Shown: positions 795-42,264 of the stretch, one piece after another
Layout: each line of letters begins with the position of its first letter
How positions within the stretch are numbered: position 1 is the stretch's first letter
Made by a program: the position numbers and the translations under genes
Notes under the pieces: generated by a model
The model's input: the letters and a program-made list of their open reading frames with translations, nothing else
Told to the model about the DNA's origin: nothing
The model's database searches: none
DNA from: Actinomadura hallensis
GTDB lineage: Bacteria; Actinomycetota; Actinomycetes; Streptosporangiales; Streptosporangiaceae
Assembly (NCBI RefSeq): GCF_006716765.1
Contig: NZ_VFPO01000001.1
Span: 4,464,001 to 4,528,000, forward strand
Reading direction: 5' to 3'
DNA: 64,000 bases

Positions 795-1337
795 ATGCCC
801 ATGGACGAGCGGCGCGCGGTGAGGATCTCCAAGTACCTCGCCCTGCACCTGCGCCACCGCCCCGAGCGGATCGGCCTCGTCCTCGACCGCGGAGGCTGGG
901 CCGGCGTCGCCGAACTGCTCGCCGCCTGCGCCCGCCACGGGTTCCCGATCACCCGCGCCGAACTCGAGCACGTCGTCGCGGTCGACGGCAAGAAGCGGTA
1001 CGTCCTCGACGGCGACCGGATCCGCGCCGTCCAGGGCCACTCGATACCGGTCGACCTGGACCTTCCTCCCGTCCCGCCGCCGGACCTCCTCTACCACGGC
1101 ACCGTCCGCCGCTCCGTGGAGCCGATCCTGCGCGACGGGCTCCTGCCCATGGGACGCCACGCCGTCCACCTGTCCCCCGACCGCGAGACGGCACGGCGGG
1201 TCGGCGCGCGGCGCGGCGAACCCGTCGTCCTCGTCGTGGAGGCCGGGCGGATGGCCGCCGACGGGCACGAGTTCCGCGTCAGCGAGAACGGCGTGTGGCT
1301 GACCGGCCGCGTCCCGCCGGAATATCTTCGCGGATGA
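795..1337 (+). CDS. kptA: RNA 2'-phosphotransferase (Tpt1/KptA family)
   Basis: A 180-residue protein of the KptA/Tpt1 family, which uses NAD+ to remove a 2'-phosphate from RNA, giving ADP-ribose 1'',2''-cyclic phosphate. In eukaryotes it completes tRNA splicing; the bacterial role is unsettled. The N-terminal signature SKYLALHLRHRPERIGL carries the first catalytic Arg (about R20). VQGHS holds the catalytic His (about H82) and LYHGT begins the NAD-binding half. The start could be ATG 795 or ATG 801 (two residues shorter). Its 3' end overlaps the convergent HAD-like gene by 59 bases. Family assignment is secure. Confidence 0.9.
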   Translation: MPMDERRAVRISKYLALHLRHRPERIGLVLDRGGWAGVAELLAACARHGFPITRAELEHVVAVDGKKRYVLDGDRIRAVQGHSIPVDLDLPPVPPPDLLYHGTVRRSVEPILRDGLLPMGRHAVHLSPDRETARRVGARRGEPVVLVVEAGRMAADGHEFRVSENGVWLTGRVPPEYLRG

Positions 1338-1806
1338 CCTCGGCGGCCGCCCAGTCCGGGACGTGCCGCACCCACTCCGGCCCGCCCGCCGGGCCGAACA
1401 GGTACAGGTGGGGGACGATCCCCCGGATCGCGCGGTGCACGTCCAGCCGGTCGTCGATCATGTGGGTGATGCCGAGCTCCCGGCAGTGGACCGCCTTCTC
1501 CGCCCGCTCGTAGCAGAACCGGACGTTGCCCCTGGGCAGGCCCGTCCGCGCGTAGAAGTCGTGGTGGTCGAGCCAGGCCAGCGTCCGCTCCCGCACGCGG
1601 TCACCGCACTTCGAGATGATCCAGGCGCGGCCCCCGAACGCCTCGATCAGCCCGGGCAGCACCTCGTACACGCCCGCGGTCGCCGGTGAGGCGAGCGCCT
1701 CCTCGAAGGTCCCGTCGAGGAACGCCGTGTCGTCGCAGCCCGGCGCGAGCGGCCCCCCGTGGATGACGCGGCCGAAGTCGACGCCGAGCCGAGGTTCGAT
1801 GTCCAT
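1279..1806 (-). CDS. HAD-superfamily-like protein, possibly inactive
   Basis: 175 residues with the layout of a small HAD phosphatase. The N-terminal strand is GVDFGRVIHGG. ISK (about residues 64-66) is the motif II position, an AEKAVHC lysine fits motif III, and THMIDDRLD carries the motif IV acid pair. In active HAD phosphatases motif I is DxDGT/V with two aspartates; here the second is replaced (DFGRV), so phosphatase activity is doubtful. The C-terminal tail overlaps kptA by 59 bases on the opposite strand and is Arg-rich, so its last 20 residues may be only tolerated read-through. The gene is divergent from the LysR regulator with 69 bases between. Substrate unknown. Confidence 0.7.
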   Translation of the reverse strand: MDIEPRLGVDFGRVIHGGPLAPGCDDTAFLDGTFEEALASPATAGVYEVLPGLIEAFGGRAWIISKCGDRVRERTLAWLDHHDFYARTGLPRGNVRFCYERAEKAVHCRELGITHMIDDRLDVHRAIRGIVPHLYLFGPAGGPEWVRHVPDWAAAEVIREDIPAGRGRSATRRSR

Positions 1807-1861
1807 GCCACCACTGTCGGCCCGCCGCCCCTAAAACAGAACTATCGATCAGCGCGGAAAC

Positions 1862-1867
1862 TATAGT
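1862..1867 (+). promoter_or_regulatory. Candidate -10 for a leaderless LysR transcript
   Basis: TATAGT lies eight bases before the ATG at 1876, which would place transcription start at or within two bases of the start codon. It is also part of the palindrome ACTATAGT, and ATAG-N7-CTAT spans the start, so self-repression by the LysR protein is possible. No good -35 is seen. Confidence 0.4.
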
Positions 1868-1875
1868 CTGCGGCT

Positions 1876-2796
1876 ATGGAGCTGGGCCGCCTGTCCACCG
1901 ACGCCCTCGCCTCCTTCGCCGTCTTCGCCGACCACCTCAGCTTCACCCGCGCGGCCGAGGAACTCCACATCTCCCAGCCCGCCCTCCACGTCAAGGTGCG
2001 GAAGCTCTCCGAGATCCTCGGCGTCCCCCTCTACACCAGGCACGGCCGCCGCCTCGCCCTCACCCCCGCCGGCGAACGCGTCGCACGCTTCGCCCGCGAC
2101 CTCGACGCCCGCGTGTCCGCGTTCCTCTCCGACGTCCGCGGCGCCGCGCCCGCCCGCGTCCCGGCCCTCGCCGCCGGCGAAGGCGCCTACCTCTACCTCC
2201 TCGGCGGCGTCGTCCGCCCCGGCATCCGCCTCATCAACGGCGACCGCGCCCGGACCCTCGCCGCCGTCCGCACCGGCCGCGCCGACCTCGGCGTCTCCGT
2301 CCTGGACGTCATGCCCACCGATCTGGAGGCCGTTCTCCTGGCCGCCTACCCGCAGGTCCTGGTCATGCCGGCCGACCACCCCCTGGCCGGCGAGCCGGAC
2401 CTGACCCTTGCCGACCTCGCCGGCGCCTCCCTGGTCGCGCCCCCGCCCACCGGCCCGCATCGCGTGGCGCTGGAACGCGCCCTCCGCGCCGCCGCCGTCC
2501 CCTGGACGCTCGCCGTCGAGGCCGAGGGGTGGCCACTGGCCCTGCACTTCGTCTCCCTGGGCATCGGCCTGGCGGTCGTGAACGGCTGCGTAATTCCTCC
2601 CCCGGGTCTGGTCACCCGCGAGATCATTGACCTGCCCGCCGTGTCCTACCACGCGGTGCACCACCCGTCCCGCGCCGACGACCCCATGGTCACCGGCCTC
2701 CTGTCCGAGATACGCACAGCGCTGAGGAACGCACCATGCACGTCGAGACCACCGTCGACATCAACGCCGGCCCCGAGACCGTCTGGAAGCTCCTGA
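1876..2796 (+). CDS. LysR-family transcriptional regulator
   Basis: 306 residues. The N-terminal winged helix-turn-helix (about residues 8-67, with FTRAAEELHISQPALHVKVRKL) is classic LysR. The C-terminal two-lobed effector domain follows (about 90-275), ending near the REIIDLPAVSYHAV strand. It likely controls the SRPBCC gene it overlaps, or the divergent HAD-like gene. The last 20 residues (from about 287) lie inside the SRPBCC gene in another frame and are Ser/Pro/Thr-rich, unlike a LysR tail. Either the overlap is real or a small frameshift has extended the frame; I see no direct evidence of an error. Ligand unknown. Confidence 0.88.
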   Translation: MELGRLSTDALASFAVFADHLSFTRAAEELHISQPALHVKVRKLSEILGVPLYTRHGRRLALTPAGERVARFARDLDARVSAFLSDVRGAAPARVPALAAGEGAYLYLLGGVVRPGIRLINGDRARTLAAVRTGRADLGVSVLDVMPTDLEAVLLAAYPQVLVMPADHPLAGEPDLTLADLAGASLVAPPPTGPHRVALERALRAAAVPWTLAVEAEGWPLALHFVSLGIGLAVVNGCVIPPPGLVTREIIDLPAVSYHAVHHPSRADDPMVTGLLSEIRTALRNAPCTSRPPSTSTPAPRPSGSS

Positions 2797-3167
2797 CCGA
2801 CGTCGAACGCTGGCCCGACATGACCGCCTCGATCGACCGCGTCGAACTCCTGGACGGCCCCATCGCCCTCTCCGCGCGGGCCCGCGTCCACCAGCCGAAG
2901 CTGCCCGCCGCCGTCTGGACGGTCACCGAGTTCGACGAGAACCGGATCTTCACCTGGGAGTCCCGCGCCCCCGGCGTCACCACCGTCGCCGCCCACGAGA
3001 TCACCCCCGCGAACGGTACGACCCGGCTCCGCCTCACCCTCGACCAGAAGGGCCCCCTGGCCCCCGTGATCGCCCTCCTGACGGGCCGCCTGACCCGCCG
3101 CTACGTGACCATGGAGGCCACCGGCCTGAAGGCCAAGGCGGAAGCCGCGGCCCACCCCGACCGCTGA
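2736..3167 (+). CDS. SRPBCC (polyketide cyclase/START-like) protein
   Basis: A 143-residue single-domain protein of the SRPBCC fold, which forms a deep hydrophobic ligand pocket. The N-terminal pattern VETTVDINAGPETVWKLLTD, the WPDMTASIDRVELLDG strand and the C-terminal long helix with MEATGLKAKAE fit the family. Start is ATG 2736, preceded by TGAGGA as ribosome binding site. It overlaps the LysR gene by 61 bases, so the two are probably translationally linked. It ends in a palindrome shared with holA. Family members range from lipid carriers to cyclases and stress proteins, so function cannot be set. Confidence 0.82.
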   Translation: MHVETTVDINAGPETVWKLLTDVERWPDMTASIDRVELLDGPIALSARARVHQPKLPAAVWTVTEFDENRIFTWESRAPGVTTVAAHEITPANGTTRLRLTLDQKGPLAPVIALLTGRLTRRYVTMEATGLKAKAEAAAHPDR

Positions 3168-3181
3168 CCACCCCTGGTCAG
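3164..3181. terminator. Palindrome spanning both convergent stop codons
   Basis: CTGACCA (3164-3170), a CCCC loop, then TGGTCAG (3175-3181). The left arm contains the TGA stop of the SRPBCC gene and the right arm contains the complement of the TGA stop of holA. It could work as a small bidirectional terminator; at 7 bp the stem is modest. Confidence 0.45.
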
Positions 3182-4131
3182 TTGCGGGCGGCGACTATTT
3201 CGGCGACCGCCTTCTCCAGGGCGTAGGCGGGGTCGGCGGCGCCGCCCTTGACCTGCTCGTCGGCCTCGGCGACGGCGGTGATGGCGCGCGCGACCCCGTC
3301 GGCGGACCAGGCGCGCAGCTGCTTCTGCACGCGGTCGATCTTCCAGGGCGGCATTCCCAGCTCCTTCGCCAGCGCAGCGCCGCGGGCGCCGCGCGGGGCG
3401 CCGCCGACCTTCGCCAGGCCCCGGACGCCCTGGGCCAGGGCGCTGACGATCAGCACGGGCGCCACGCCGGTGGCGAGTGCCCAGCGGAGCTGCTCCAGCG
3501 CCTCGGCGAGCCGGCCCTCGATCGCGGTGTCCGCCACCGTGAAGCCGCTGACCTCGGCGCGGCCCCGGTAGTACCGCGCGACCGCGGCGTCGTCGACCTT
3601 GCCGCCGGTGTCGGCGACCAGCTGGCCGCAGGCGGCCGCGAGCTCCCGCAGGTCGGTGCCGACCGCGTCGATCAGCCCGCGCGCGCCGTCCGCCGAGATC
3701 TTCCCGCCCGCGCGGCGGATCTCGGACCGGACGAAGTCGACCCGCTCCCCCATCTTGGTGATCTTCGGGCAGGAGATCTTGCGGGCCTTGAGCTTCGTCA
3801 GGCCGTCCACCAGCGCCTTGCCCTTGGCGCCGCCGTGGTGGACGGCGACGAGCACCACGTCGTCCGCGGGCGACTTGGCGTAGGCGAGGACCTCGGCCGT
3901 CAGGTCCTTCCCCAGGTCCTGCGCGGCCCGGACCACGAGCACCTTGCCGCCGCCGAACAGGGAGGGCGACGTCAGCTCCGAGATCCGCCCGGGTTCCAGG
4001 CCGCCCGGCACCAGGTCGATCACCTCGGCCTCCGGGTCGTCCGCCCGCACGGAGGCGACGACGTCGCCGATCGCCCGCTCCACGAGCAGCTCTTCGTCCC
4101 CGACGATCAGGATGATGGGCTCAACCGACAC
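3178..4131 (-). CDS. holA: DNA polymerase III delta subunit
   Basis: About 317 residues, normal for HolA, the clamp-loader subunit that opens the beta sliding clamp. The protein begins VSVEPIILIVGDEELLVERAI, the family's GxEELL-type N-terminal signature, then an AAA-like domain I, a middle lid domain and the helical collar region near the end (ALAKELGMPPWKIDRVQKQL). I chose GTG at 4131-4129 because conserved sequence starts there; longer upstream extensions are proline/arginine-rich and unlike HolA. It lies downstream of comEA and comEC in the order usual for actinobacteria and firmicutes. It converges on the SRPBCC gene. Confidence 0.93.
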   Translation of the reverse strand: MSVEPIILIVGDEELLVERAIGDVVASVRADDPEAEVIDLVPGGLEPGRISELTSPSLFGGGKVLVVRAAQDLGKDLTAEVLAYAKSPADDVVLVAVHHGGAKGKALVDGLTKLKARKISCPKITKMGERVDFVRSEIRRAGGKISADGARGLIDAVGTDLRELAAACGQLVADTGGKVDDAAVARYYRGRAEVSGFTVADTAIEGRLAEALEQLRWALATGVAPVLIVSALAQGVRGLAKVGGAPRGARGAALAKELGMPPWKIDRVQKQLRAWSADGVARAITAVAEADEQVKGGAADPAYALEKAVAEIVAARN

Positions 4132-39908: not shown

Positions 39909-42110
39909 TCAGGAATCGCCGGGCTTGGCCTTGGCCGTCCTCCTGCCGGCGGGCTTGGCGGGCTCGGGGGACGCGGCGGCGTCGGGCGCGGCCGGGGCGG
40001 CGGGCTCGGCCTCGCGGTCGACCTTCGGGCCGATGCCGAGCTTCTCCTTGATCTTCTTCTCGATCCCGTCGGCCAGGTCGGGGTTGGCCTTGAGGAAGTT
40101 GCGGGCGTTCTCCTTGCCCTGGCCGAGCTGGTCGCCGTCGTAGGTGTACCAGGCGCCGGACTTGCGGACGAAGCCGTGCTCCACGCCGAGGTCGATCAGG
40201 CCGCCCTCGCGGCTGATGCCCTGGCCGTAGAGCAGGTCGAAGTCGGCGACGCGGAACGGCGGGGCCATCTTGTTCTTGACGACCTTGACCCGGACCCGGT
40301 TGCCGACGGGCTCGGTGCCGTCCTTGAGGGTCTCGATGCGGCGGACGTCCAGCCGGACGGAGGCGTAGAACTTCAGCGCCCGGCCGCCGGTGGTCGTCTC
40401 GGGGCTGTTGTGGACCATCACACCGTCGACGAAGTAGTTGTGCGACCCCTCGACCTCGATGTCGAACTTCTTCATCGAGCGGGTCTTCGGCTTGACATGC
40501 ACGTCGATGATCCGGCTGGGCACCAACCTGGGCTCCGGGTCGGCGAACTGCGGCTCGACCGTGCACTGGCCTCGGAAGCGCGGCAGCAGCTTGTGCTCCA
40601 TCGACTCGGGCACGTAAGGAGCGATGAGCTCCTGGAACTTCACCGAAGCCGCGGTCGTGAACTGGATGACGCTGACGGCCCGCGCACCCCTCGTCGTGAG
40701 CTTCACGTCCAGCCCGTGGGTGTCGCGGAGGTACTCCACGACTCGGGCCCGCGAGCCCGGGCTGAAGGCTTCCACACAGATCTCGATGCGGCCCGTACCT
40801 CCCTCGGTGCGCTTCTGGACCCCCTTGGACCGAACGGTGAAGCAGCCGTCGTCCATGTACCAGACGGCCAGGGCGAGCGGGCCGAGGGCCTTCAGGTAAT
40901 CCCAGGTGAGGTGCTTCTTCCCGTCCCCGAAGTAGACGACCTGCCGAAGCTCGTCCAGTTCCGGCAGCGGGCTGAAGTCCGCGAACACCGCCCCCTTGGC
41001 ATTGGTCGTGCGGCTGTGCCCGATATTGCCCAGCAGGGATGTCTTCCAGTCGAGGTACGCCTCCTGGTCGGCGCCGTGCCCCAGGCGGAAGCGCACACCC
41101 GTGCGGCCGCGGCGGTTCGGTGACAGGTGCCCGTCGCCCATCACCGAGCCGAGCACCACCTGCCACTGCTGCTCGCTGAGACGGTGGGTCTCCATGAGCA
41201 TGACCCGGTCTCCCGCGACCAGCTCGCCGGCCTCCCTGTAGCCGCCCGGCGTGCGGATGAGGTGATTCTCGGTCGCGGCGAACTGCGCCCGGCCGTTACC
41301 GCCCGACTTCGCCACGGTGAACTGGAGGAAGTGGTCGGCGGTGCCGTTGTCGAACCAGTTGACGATGCGCTTGGGGACGATCCTGTCCTGCTCCGGGTCG
41401 TAGGACAGTACCTCGACGTCCATCCTCTGGTTGACGATCTTGCCGATCTTCTCCTGCGACCCGTCCGCGAGCGTCACCCGGGTGCCGTAACTCATGCACC
41501 CGAACATCACGCCGACCTTCTCGCGGAGCTGGTTGATGAAGATCGCGGTCGTCTTGGTGGAGTTGATCGCGCCGGTGAGCTTGCGCAGGGCCTGCGACAT
41601 GAGGCGGGCCTGGAGGCCGACGTGGCTGTCGCCCATCTCGCCCTCGATCTCCGCGCGGGGGACGAGCGCGGCGACGGAGTCGATCACCACGATGTCGATC
41701 GCGCCGGAGCGGATCAGCATGTCGGTGATCTCCAGGGCCTGCTCGCCGGTGTCGGGCTGGGAGACCAGCAGGGCGTCGATGTCGACGCCGAGCTTGGACG
41801 CGTACTCGGGGTCGAGGGCGTGCTCGGCGTCCACGAACGCGGCGATGCCGCCCTTCTTCTGGACGTTGGCCACGGCGTGGAGCGCGATGGAGGTCTTGCC
41901 GGAGCCCTCGGGGCCGTACACCTCCACGACGCGGCCGCGGGGCAGGCCGCCGATGCCGAGCGCGATGTCGAGGGAGATCGCCCCGGTGGGGATCACCTCG
42001 ACCGGCGCCCGCGCCTCCTCGCCCATCCGCATGACCGAACCCTTGCCGAACTGCCGCTCGATCTGGGCGAGGGCGGTTTCGAGAGCCTTCTCCCGGTCGT
42101 TCGCTGCCAT
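39909..42110 (-). CDS. recA: Recombinase RecA, interrupted by an intein
   Basis: 733 residues before splicing, 369 after removal of the 364-residue intein (normal for RecA). RecA forms filaments on single-stranded DNA, drives strand exchange and triggers LexA self-cleavage. The Walker [41 protein letters not shown] and the L1/L2 regions are intact in the exteins. The C-terminal tail is Ala/Pro-rich and acidic to basic, as in other actinobacteria. ATG 42110 is preceded by AAGGACACC. It heads an operon with the 62-aa ORF and recX. Confidence 0.97.
40407..41498 (-). other. RecA intein with LAGLIDADG homing endonuclease
   Basis: 364 residues within RecA, from Cys205 to Asn568 of the precursor, in frame. 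Splicing residues are present: Cys1 in [15 protein letters not shown], a block-B TxxH-type ATENHLIRT, the penultimate His and last Asn in GVMVHN, and Ser as first C-extein residue (SPETTTGG). Two endonuclease motifs, [11 protein letters not shown] and LAVWYMDDG, keep their acidic residues, so homing activity may persist. The insertion point follows EKVGVMFG, in the second DNA-binding loop, the site I recall for the M. leprae RecA intein. Confidence 0.95.
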
Positions 42111-42248: not shown

Positions 42249-42264
42249 CCGAACATCCGTTCGA
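42249..42264. promoter_or_regulatory. SOS box (LexA operator)
   Basis: CCGAACATCCGTTCGA; on the recA strand TCGAAC-GGAT-GTTCGG, 11 of 12 positions of the actinobacterial consensus TCGAAC-N4-GTTCGA. It lies about 140 bases upstream of recA and 92 upstream of the divergent ATP-grasp gene. TAAGCT (42248-42243 leftward) next to it could be the -10 of a LexA-controlled recA promoter. Confidence 0.85.

Follow-up and report, generated by a model that had tools for sequence, protein, structure and literature searches.

A full-length, probably still mobile RecA intein in Actinomadura hallensis and a codon mark at its insertion site

The 64,000-nucleotide stretch of the Actinomadura hallensis genome analysed here (the window) carries on its reverse strand a recA gene interrupted in frame by an intein. 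By the PF00154 model it is the single recA of the 6.70 Mb, one-contig genome, and the PF00154 match falls into two pieces flanking the insert. One frame encodes a 733-residue RecA precursor, in which a 364-residue intein sits at the L2-loop site FG/SPET (the slash marks the insertion point). The joined exteins form a 369-residue RecA. The features are as follows, in window coordinates.

39909..42110, (-) strand: recA precursor gene, 733 codons plus stop
41499..42110, (-) strand: N-extein, 204 codons, C-terminal end ...GVMFG
41499..41501, (-) strand: Gly-1 codon GGG, left half of the proposed scar
40407..41498, (-) strand: class 1 intein, 364 codons, Cys1 ... His363 Asn364
41175..41498, (-) strand: Hint (splicing) domain, N-terminal part, residues 1-108, with C1 and block B T76/H79; TIGR01445; Mtu RecA intein fold
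40611..41174, (-) strand: LAGLIDADG homing endonuclease domain, about residues 109-296; PF03161 at 112-288, I-SceI fold at 100-305
41133..41135, (-) strand: Asp122, acidic residue of LAGLIDADG motif 1; conserved in 134 of 144 inteins
40848..40850, (-) strand: Asp217, acidic residue of LAGLIDADG motif 2 (YMDDG); conserved in 128 of 144 inteins
40407..40544, (-) strand: Hint (splicing) domain, C-terminal part, residues 319-364, ending in HN; TIGR01443
40404..40406, (-) strand: Ser+1 codon AGC, right half of the proposed scar
39909..40406, (-) strand: C-extein, 165 codons plus stop, first residue Ser+1
42251..42262, (-) strand: LexA-like box GAACGGATGTTC, 152 bases upstream of the recA ATG

The insert has the residues of a class 1 intein: Cys1, a block B T..H pair, a terminal His-Asn and Ser+1, in frame with both exteins. 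The intein end models of NCBIfam (TIGR01445 and TIGR01443) score above their cut-offs and Pfam Intein_splicing (PF14890) scores under its own. The structure model and fold comparison showed a Hint splicing fold. C1, T76, H79, H363 and N364 are each kept in 144 of 144 distinct inteins at FG/SPET, and none of 160 carrier loci has an internal stop. The junction reads ...FG and then S in every carrier locus displayed, with L064, L065, L110, L112, L194, L195 and L196 skipped. By homology, splicing would open with an N-S shift at Cys1, transfer to Ser+1 would follow, and cyclisation of Asn364, assisted by His363, would release the free intein and the 369-residue RecA. The RecA exteins contain no cysteine and the intein contains four, C1, C219, C241 and C312. 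The sequence-only reading of this stretch had described a RecA with a full-length intein bearing Cys1, the terminal His-Asn and Ser+1, and exteins joining to 369 residues. All of these are confirmed, and the endonuclease looks intact.

Pfam LAGLIDADG_2 (PF03161) spans intein residues 112-288. The structure model has an I-SceI-like fold with motif helices at residues 109-120 and 207-217, and with D122 and D217 present this bears out the two acid-bearing LAGLIDADG motifs recognised earlier. I-SceI itself is a free-standing intron enzyme with 19% identity to the window intein. The dN/dS of the endonuclease (residues 109-296) is 0.092, 0.122, 0.203 and 0.143 against genomes G244, G140, G139 and G079, about equal to that of the splicing parts; judged by its sequence, the domain is under purifying selection. 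Work on PI-MleI reportedly assigned the catalytic acids to D122 and D193 and dismissed D218; we take its D193 and D218 to be D192 and D217 of the window intein. The retention of D217 follows that of D122 (126 of 134 inteins with D122, 2 of 10 without), and D192, kept in 107 of 144 distinct inteins, is missing from 29 that retain both D122 and D217, counts in which the rows are related and hence not independent events. This pattern in the alignment suggests to us that catalysis rests with the pair D122 and D217. The pattern, in which D217 goes with D122 and D192 is often missing, bears on which acids catalyse. The intein is probably still mobile: by homology to I-SceI and PI-type enzymes, the LAGLIDADG domain would cut empty recA alleles, and repair of the cut allele would copy the intein in.

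Full-length matches of 60-100% identity were found in 50 of the 298 genomes sampled from the GTDB family; a family tally of 97 genomes includes short weak matches to other inteins. At E <= 1e-20, matches occur in 35 of 396 genomes of the phylum sample and 26 of 394 of the class sample, each count including the window genome and a few weak matches near 30%. The phylum matches uphold the earlier suggestion of long persistence of the allele in the phylum. A protein search scored 7999 candidates and found 4912 relatives at E <= 1e-3; many of these bear the name "intein-containing recombinase RecA". A relative is encoded in 387 stretches of the genome collection, and the best 80 of 387, which were fetched, come from Actinomadura, Acrocarpospora, Micromonospora, Nonomuraea, Nocardiopsis, Streptomyces and others, and also from Saccharomonospora, Rhodococcus, Mycolicibacter and Mycobacterium. 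Since relatives are widespread, already named at NCBI and inserted at the same junction in the carriers displayed, the FG/SPET intein is a known, catalogued actinobacterial kind, the "intein-containing recombinase RecA" of NCBI, and the window copy is one more member.

Inteins 100% identical to that of the window are P0003, P0004 (Actinomadura sp. MAG) and P0005 (Vulgatibacteraceae MAG). The next nearest are at 91% (Spirillospora/Actinomadura), 87% (Actinomadura latina) and 83% (Thermomonospora). The RecA inteins of A. latina (L113), Spirillospora sp. and Thermomonospora curvata occupy the same site, have the same length and show 83-91% identity, with no difference of substance from the window intein. 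The best named matches being Actinomadura/Spirillospora, the earlier impression that the host is not a mycobacterium was correct. The labels of P0005 and of L183 (Acidobacteria MAG) clash with actinobacterial RecA inteins and are probably binning or naming errors.

The insertion point had been likened to that of the M. leprae RecA intein, which has 365 residues and an endonuclease according to PMC8861304. The likeness holds for the mycobacterial RecA inteins fetched (PI-MleI type), which share the FG/SPET site, a length of about 364-365 residues, a LAGLIDADG endonuclease and the class 1 residues, with kinship along the full intein length. The named Mycobacteriaceae loci however have only 70-73% identity to the window intein and fall in a separate clade, and the Ser+1 codon is AGC in the window but TCN in the mycobacterial carriers listed.

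Other inteins were seen in RecA and its viral relatives. The Mtu RecA intein (PI-MtuI) lies at a different site, VVKNK/C, where L069, L091 and L094 have a separate intein. The RecA frames of L091 (G693; 1675 residues) and L094 (G716; 1414 residues) are each interrupted three times, by one intein in the P-loop (GSGK side), one at FG/S and one at VVKNK/C. RecA precursors of about 1100-1340 residues, with a second intein in the P-loop beside the one at FG/S, occur in L012, L019, L020, L023, L025, L026 and others. In the phage collection (49 records) and the plasmid collection (113) the best place of each record is below 60% identity. Viral UvsX/RecA-like recombinases (phrog_97) carry an intein at FG/SPE in L193 (1440-3488) and L063 (4194-6482), at just 39-41% identity, and on the strength of two of eight viral contig scans and of the two collections a phage vehicle for the window copy was rejected as too distant. 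The L193 viral contig further contains genes for a single-strand binding protein and for an SbcD-like nuclease subunit. On the L063 contig a helicase frame (932-3379) seems to hold an insert of its own beginning CFPAGTKIALADG. In L065 (4347-6440) a viral UvsX-like recombinase carries its intein after ...LHGDPT, 3 residues further downstream than the homologous site. Acinetobacter plasmid genes (matches H22-H40), some annotated recombinase RecA, contain a remote intein relative of about 23% identity.

Within the genus the intein is sparse. Among 65 genomes searched, 62 have a recA match and 3 of the 62 are split by the intein: the window genome (G000), G244 and G296. G204, G300 and G314 have no recA match and were counted neither as carriers nor as empty. 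Each of the three carriers is nested among empty relatives. In the rpoB tree G270, whose recA is empty, is the sister of G000 (support 99), G244 groups with the empty G198 and G282, and G296 stands apart; 7 changes of carriage are needed among 50 genomes, 12 of them carriers. A second rpoB copy, with about 90-92% identity to the rpoB of the window genome, is present in G270, G259, G241, G288 and other Actinomadura-like genomes. The G296 intein shares 70% identity with that of the window and falls in a different clade of 7 rows (SH-aLRT 100), while at the DNA level the recA exteins and rpoB of the two genomes are 94-98% identical (rpoB 93.7%). For G296, replacement or independent gain is thereby shown.

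In the intein tree (145 rows) the window intein is joined first by that of A. latina (SH-aLRT 94) and next by that of T. curvata (84, not starred), and the Micromonosporaceae inteins stand together (SH-aLRT 96). Intein and host trees agree roughly at family level, and intein and recA distances showed a weak positive correlation (Mantel r 0.22, p 0.023, 125 carriers). Between G000 and G244 the intein dS is 0.586, against 0.159 for rpoB and 0.06-0.13 for the recA exteins. Neighbouring frames, picked mechanically and some probably not genes, reach 0.56, with one poor frame at 0.98, and the splicing part alone gives 0.41. The intein dS is therefore barely above that of neighbouring frames and the splicing part lies within their range, so this pair is by itself no demonstration of transfer. 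In another genus, the pair G078-G024 has an intein dS of 0.019, lower than its rpoB dS of 0.065. Taken together, the comparisons support repeated gain, loss or replacement of the intein inside the genus.

We consider it very probable that this is a full-length class 1 FG/SPET intein, by homology able to home, that comes and goes within the genus. Most likely it is a selfish element, tolerated by the cell because splicing restores RecA. Recent transfer from another actinomycete order, mycobacteria for example, would account for the shared insertion site and the obvious kinship with mycobacterial and Micromonospora inteins, but is very unlikely. Among the matches listed, inteins of other families reach about 81% at most and those of Actinomadura/Spirillospora 87-100%, and the mycobacterial inteins form their own 26-row clade with those of Nocardiaceae and Gordoniaceae (SH-aLRT 100). 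A mycobacterial donor was rejected on the low identity, the separate clade and the nearer relatives in Actinomadura/Spirillospora and Thermomonospora; compared by sequence, the nearest source is other Actinomadura-like actinomycetes. The transfer between orders that the sequence-only reading offered as one possibility is unsupported for the window copy, the nearest inteins being from the same genus (87%) and Thermomonospora (83%). Gain, loss or replacement in the genus is not simple vertical descent. Long-standing vertical descent within the Actinomadura/Thermomonospora group, accompanied by many separate losses and no recent homing, is unlikely but carries some weight. Such descent would also give the grouping of the window intein with A. 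latina and T. curvata. The synonymous divergence of the intein in G000-G244 and G000-G140 is not below that of neighbouring genes, and in the empty relatives G270 and G273 the codons at the insertion site resemble those of carriers, as expected of former carriers. Against it stand the rarity of the intein in the genus, the G296 intein from another clade and the G078-G024 inteins, which are more alike than the rpoB genes. In addition, D122 and D217 are both kept in 37 of 46 family carriers, above expectation had homing ceased long ago.

It had also been proposed that splicing might brake the SOS response. The box GAACGGATGTTC presumably matches the actinobacterial SOS-box consensus, and a CGAACN4GTTCG-like box lies upstream in 81 of the 96 recA loci of the set. 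Actinobacterial LexA sites imply damage-induced recA, and the precursor would be induced likewise. The M. leprae RecA precursor is spliced in mycobacteria and not in E. coli, according to a review (PMC5874633), and splicing at this site could therefore depend on the host. A conditional switch that restrains RecA in the SOS response is nevertheless improbable: the exteins have no cysteine to form a trap with Cys1, and any switch is dispensable, since 59 of the 62 genus genomes in which recA was detected have no intein. With these relatives empty the idea was ranked low, and a regulatory role of the intein in the SOS response is at most a possibility.

The codons on either side of the intein carry a mark. 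All three genus carriers have GGG or GGA at Gly-1 and AGC at Ser+1, and Ser+1 is TCN in 47 of the 50 empty genus alleles read (codons were read in 50 of the 59 genus genomes whose recA match is unbroken). Rare bases, defined by a frequency below 10% among the other 52 genus genomes, occur within 20 bases of the carriers' junction at -1, +1 and +2 only; 47 other empty alleles carry on average 0.02 such bases in either flanking codon. Three empty genus alleles have AGY: G270 (GGA/AGT), G273 (GGG/AGC) and G224 (GGC/AGT). In G273 bases +1 to +96, counted from the insertion site, are identical to the window's. The recA of G273 (L237) also lacks 11 conserved RecA core residues, in frame, either an assembly error or an odd allele.

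Across the family, Ser+1 is AGY in 46 of 46 carriers read and in 41 of 188 empty alleles among the matches listed (Fisher p 7e-25 with these empties). Stratified by genus, 29 were observed against 19.25 expected (chi-square 28, p 1.2e-7, matches listed). The 46 carriers are 4 fewer than the 50 full-length family carriers, G134, G030, G040 and G154 being left out; G134, G030 and G040 (loci L095, L098 and L111) also have AGY. The search behind the alleles from outside the genus matched 150 of 200 genomes; 138 rows outside the genus were used among the matches listed, with two G053 rows left out. Gly-1 is other than GGC in 33 of 46 carriers against 42 of 188 empties, and 19 of 188 empty family alleles, G270 included, have GGR/AGY, both among the matches listed. 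The AGY at Ser+1 is not a general codon habit, since at the other N-extein serines carriers use AGY in 72 of 309 cases and empties in 104 of 320. Outside the family, in the class, AGY was found in 2 of 23 genomes with a readable empty site. All 144 distinct carriers divide into 88 AGY and 56 TCN, and many TCN carriers, mycobacterial loci included, sit elsewhere in the intein tree; the mark therefore belongs to an intein lineage and is not a requirement of the site. In a per-position test over 300 bases of the pooled family (80 empties, 46 carriers) the strongest association is at +1 and +2 (V 0.83), but V is 0.6-0.7 at many positions far from the junction. As genus confounds this pooled test, the within-genus tests were relied on. 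In independent pairs drawn from the rpoB tree, of which 47 of 50 rows were usable, AGY went with carriage in about 4, against it in 0 and was tied in 3, a result short of significance (p 0.125).

To turn TCN into AGY two bases must change while the protein stays as it was, and selection on splicing or on RecA function therefore does not favour the switch. The mark is most simply explained if the intein brings along the bases beside the cut: only a few bases around the cut would be co-copied (co-conversion). On this basis we propose, tentatively and at a little less than an even chance, that homing leaves a synonymous scar of about 3 bases (GGG or GGA at Gly-1, AGY at Ser+1) that outlives the intein, and that empty GGR/AGY alleles are former carriers. 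G270 and G273 may be such alleles. The 4:0:3 tree contrasts are too few to prove a co-conversion scar. AGY might instead mark alleles that the endonuclease can cut, a reading we find doubtful. Target preference also predicts the association of AGY with carriage, and AGY does occur in part of the empty alleles among the matches listed. The nearest rpoB relatives of G244 (G198 and G282) and of G296 (G276 and G256) are however TCN, so target preference needs a two-base serine switch before each invasion, and mycobacterial inteins at the same site coexist with TCN.

Among the literature matches listed no title names a synonymous codon mark of intein homing, an absence that is not proof. The haloarchaeal MCM-d intein offers a likeness. 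In homing its +1 residue is co-converted from Pro to Ser, as PMC10643990 describes it, so that co-conversion likewise alters the codon after the insertion site. There the change is required for splicing, whereas in the window the serine is kept and the codon class alone differs. If true, the codon scar would tell never-invaded from once-invaded alleles, a long-standing difficulty for models of the homing cycle, and gain and loss of the intein would become countable from the DNA of empty recA alleles.
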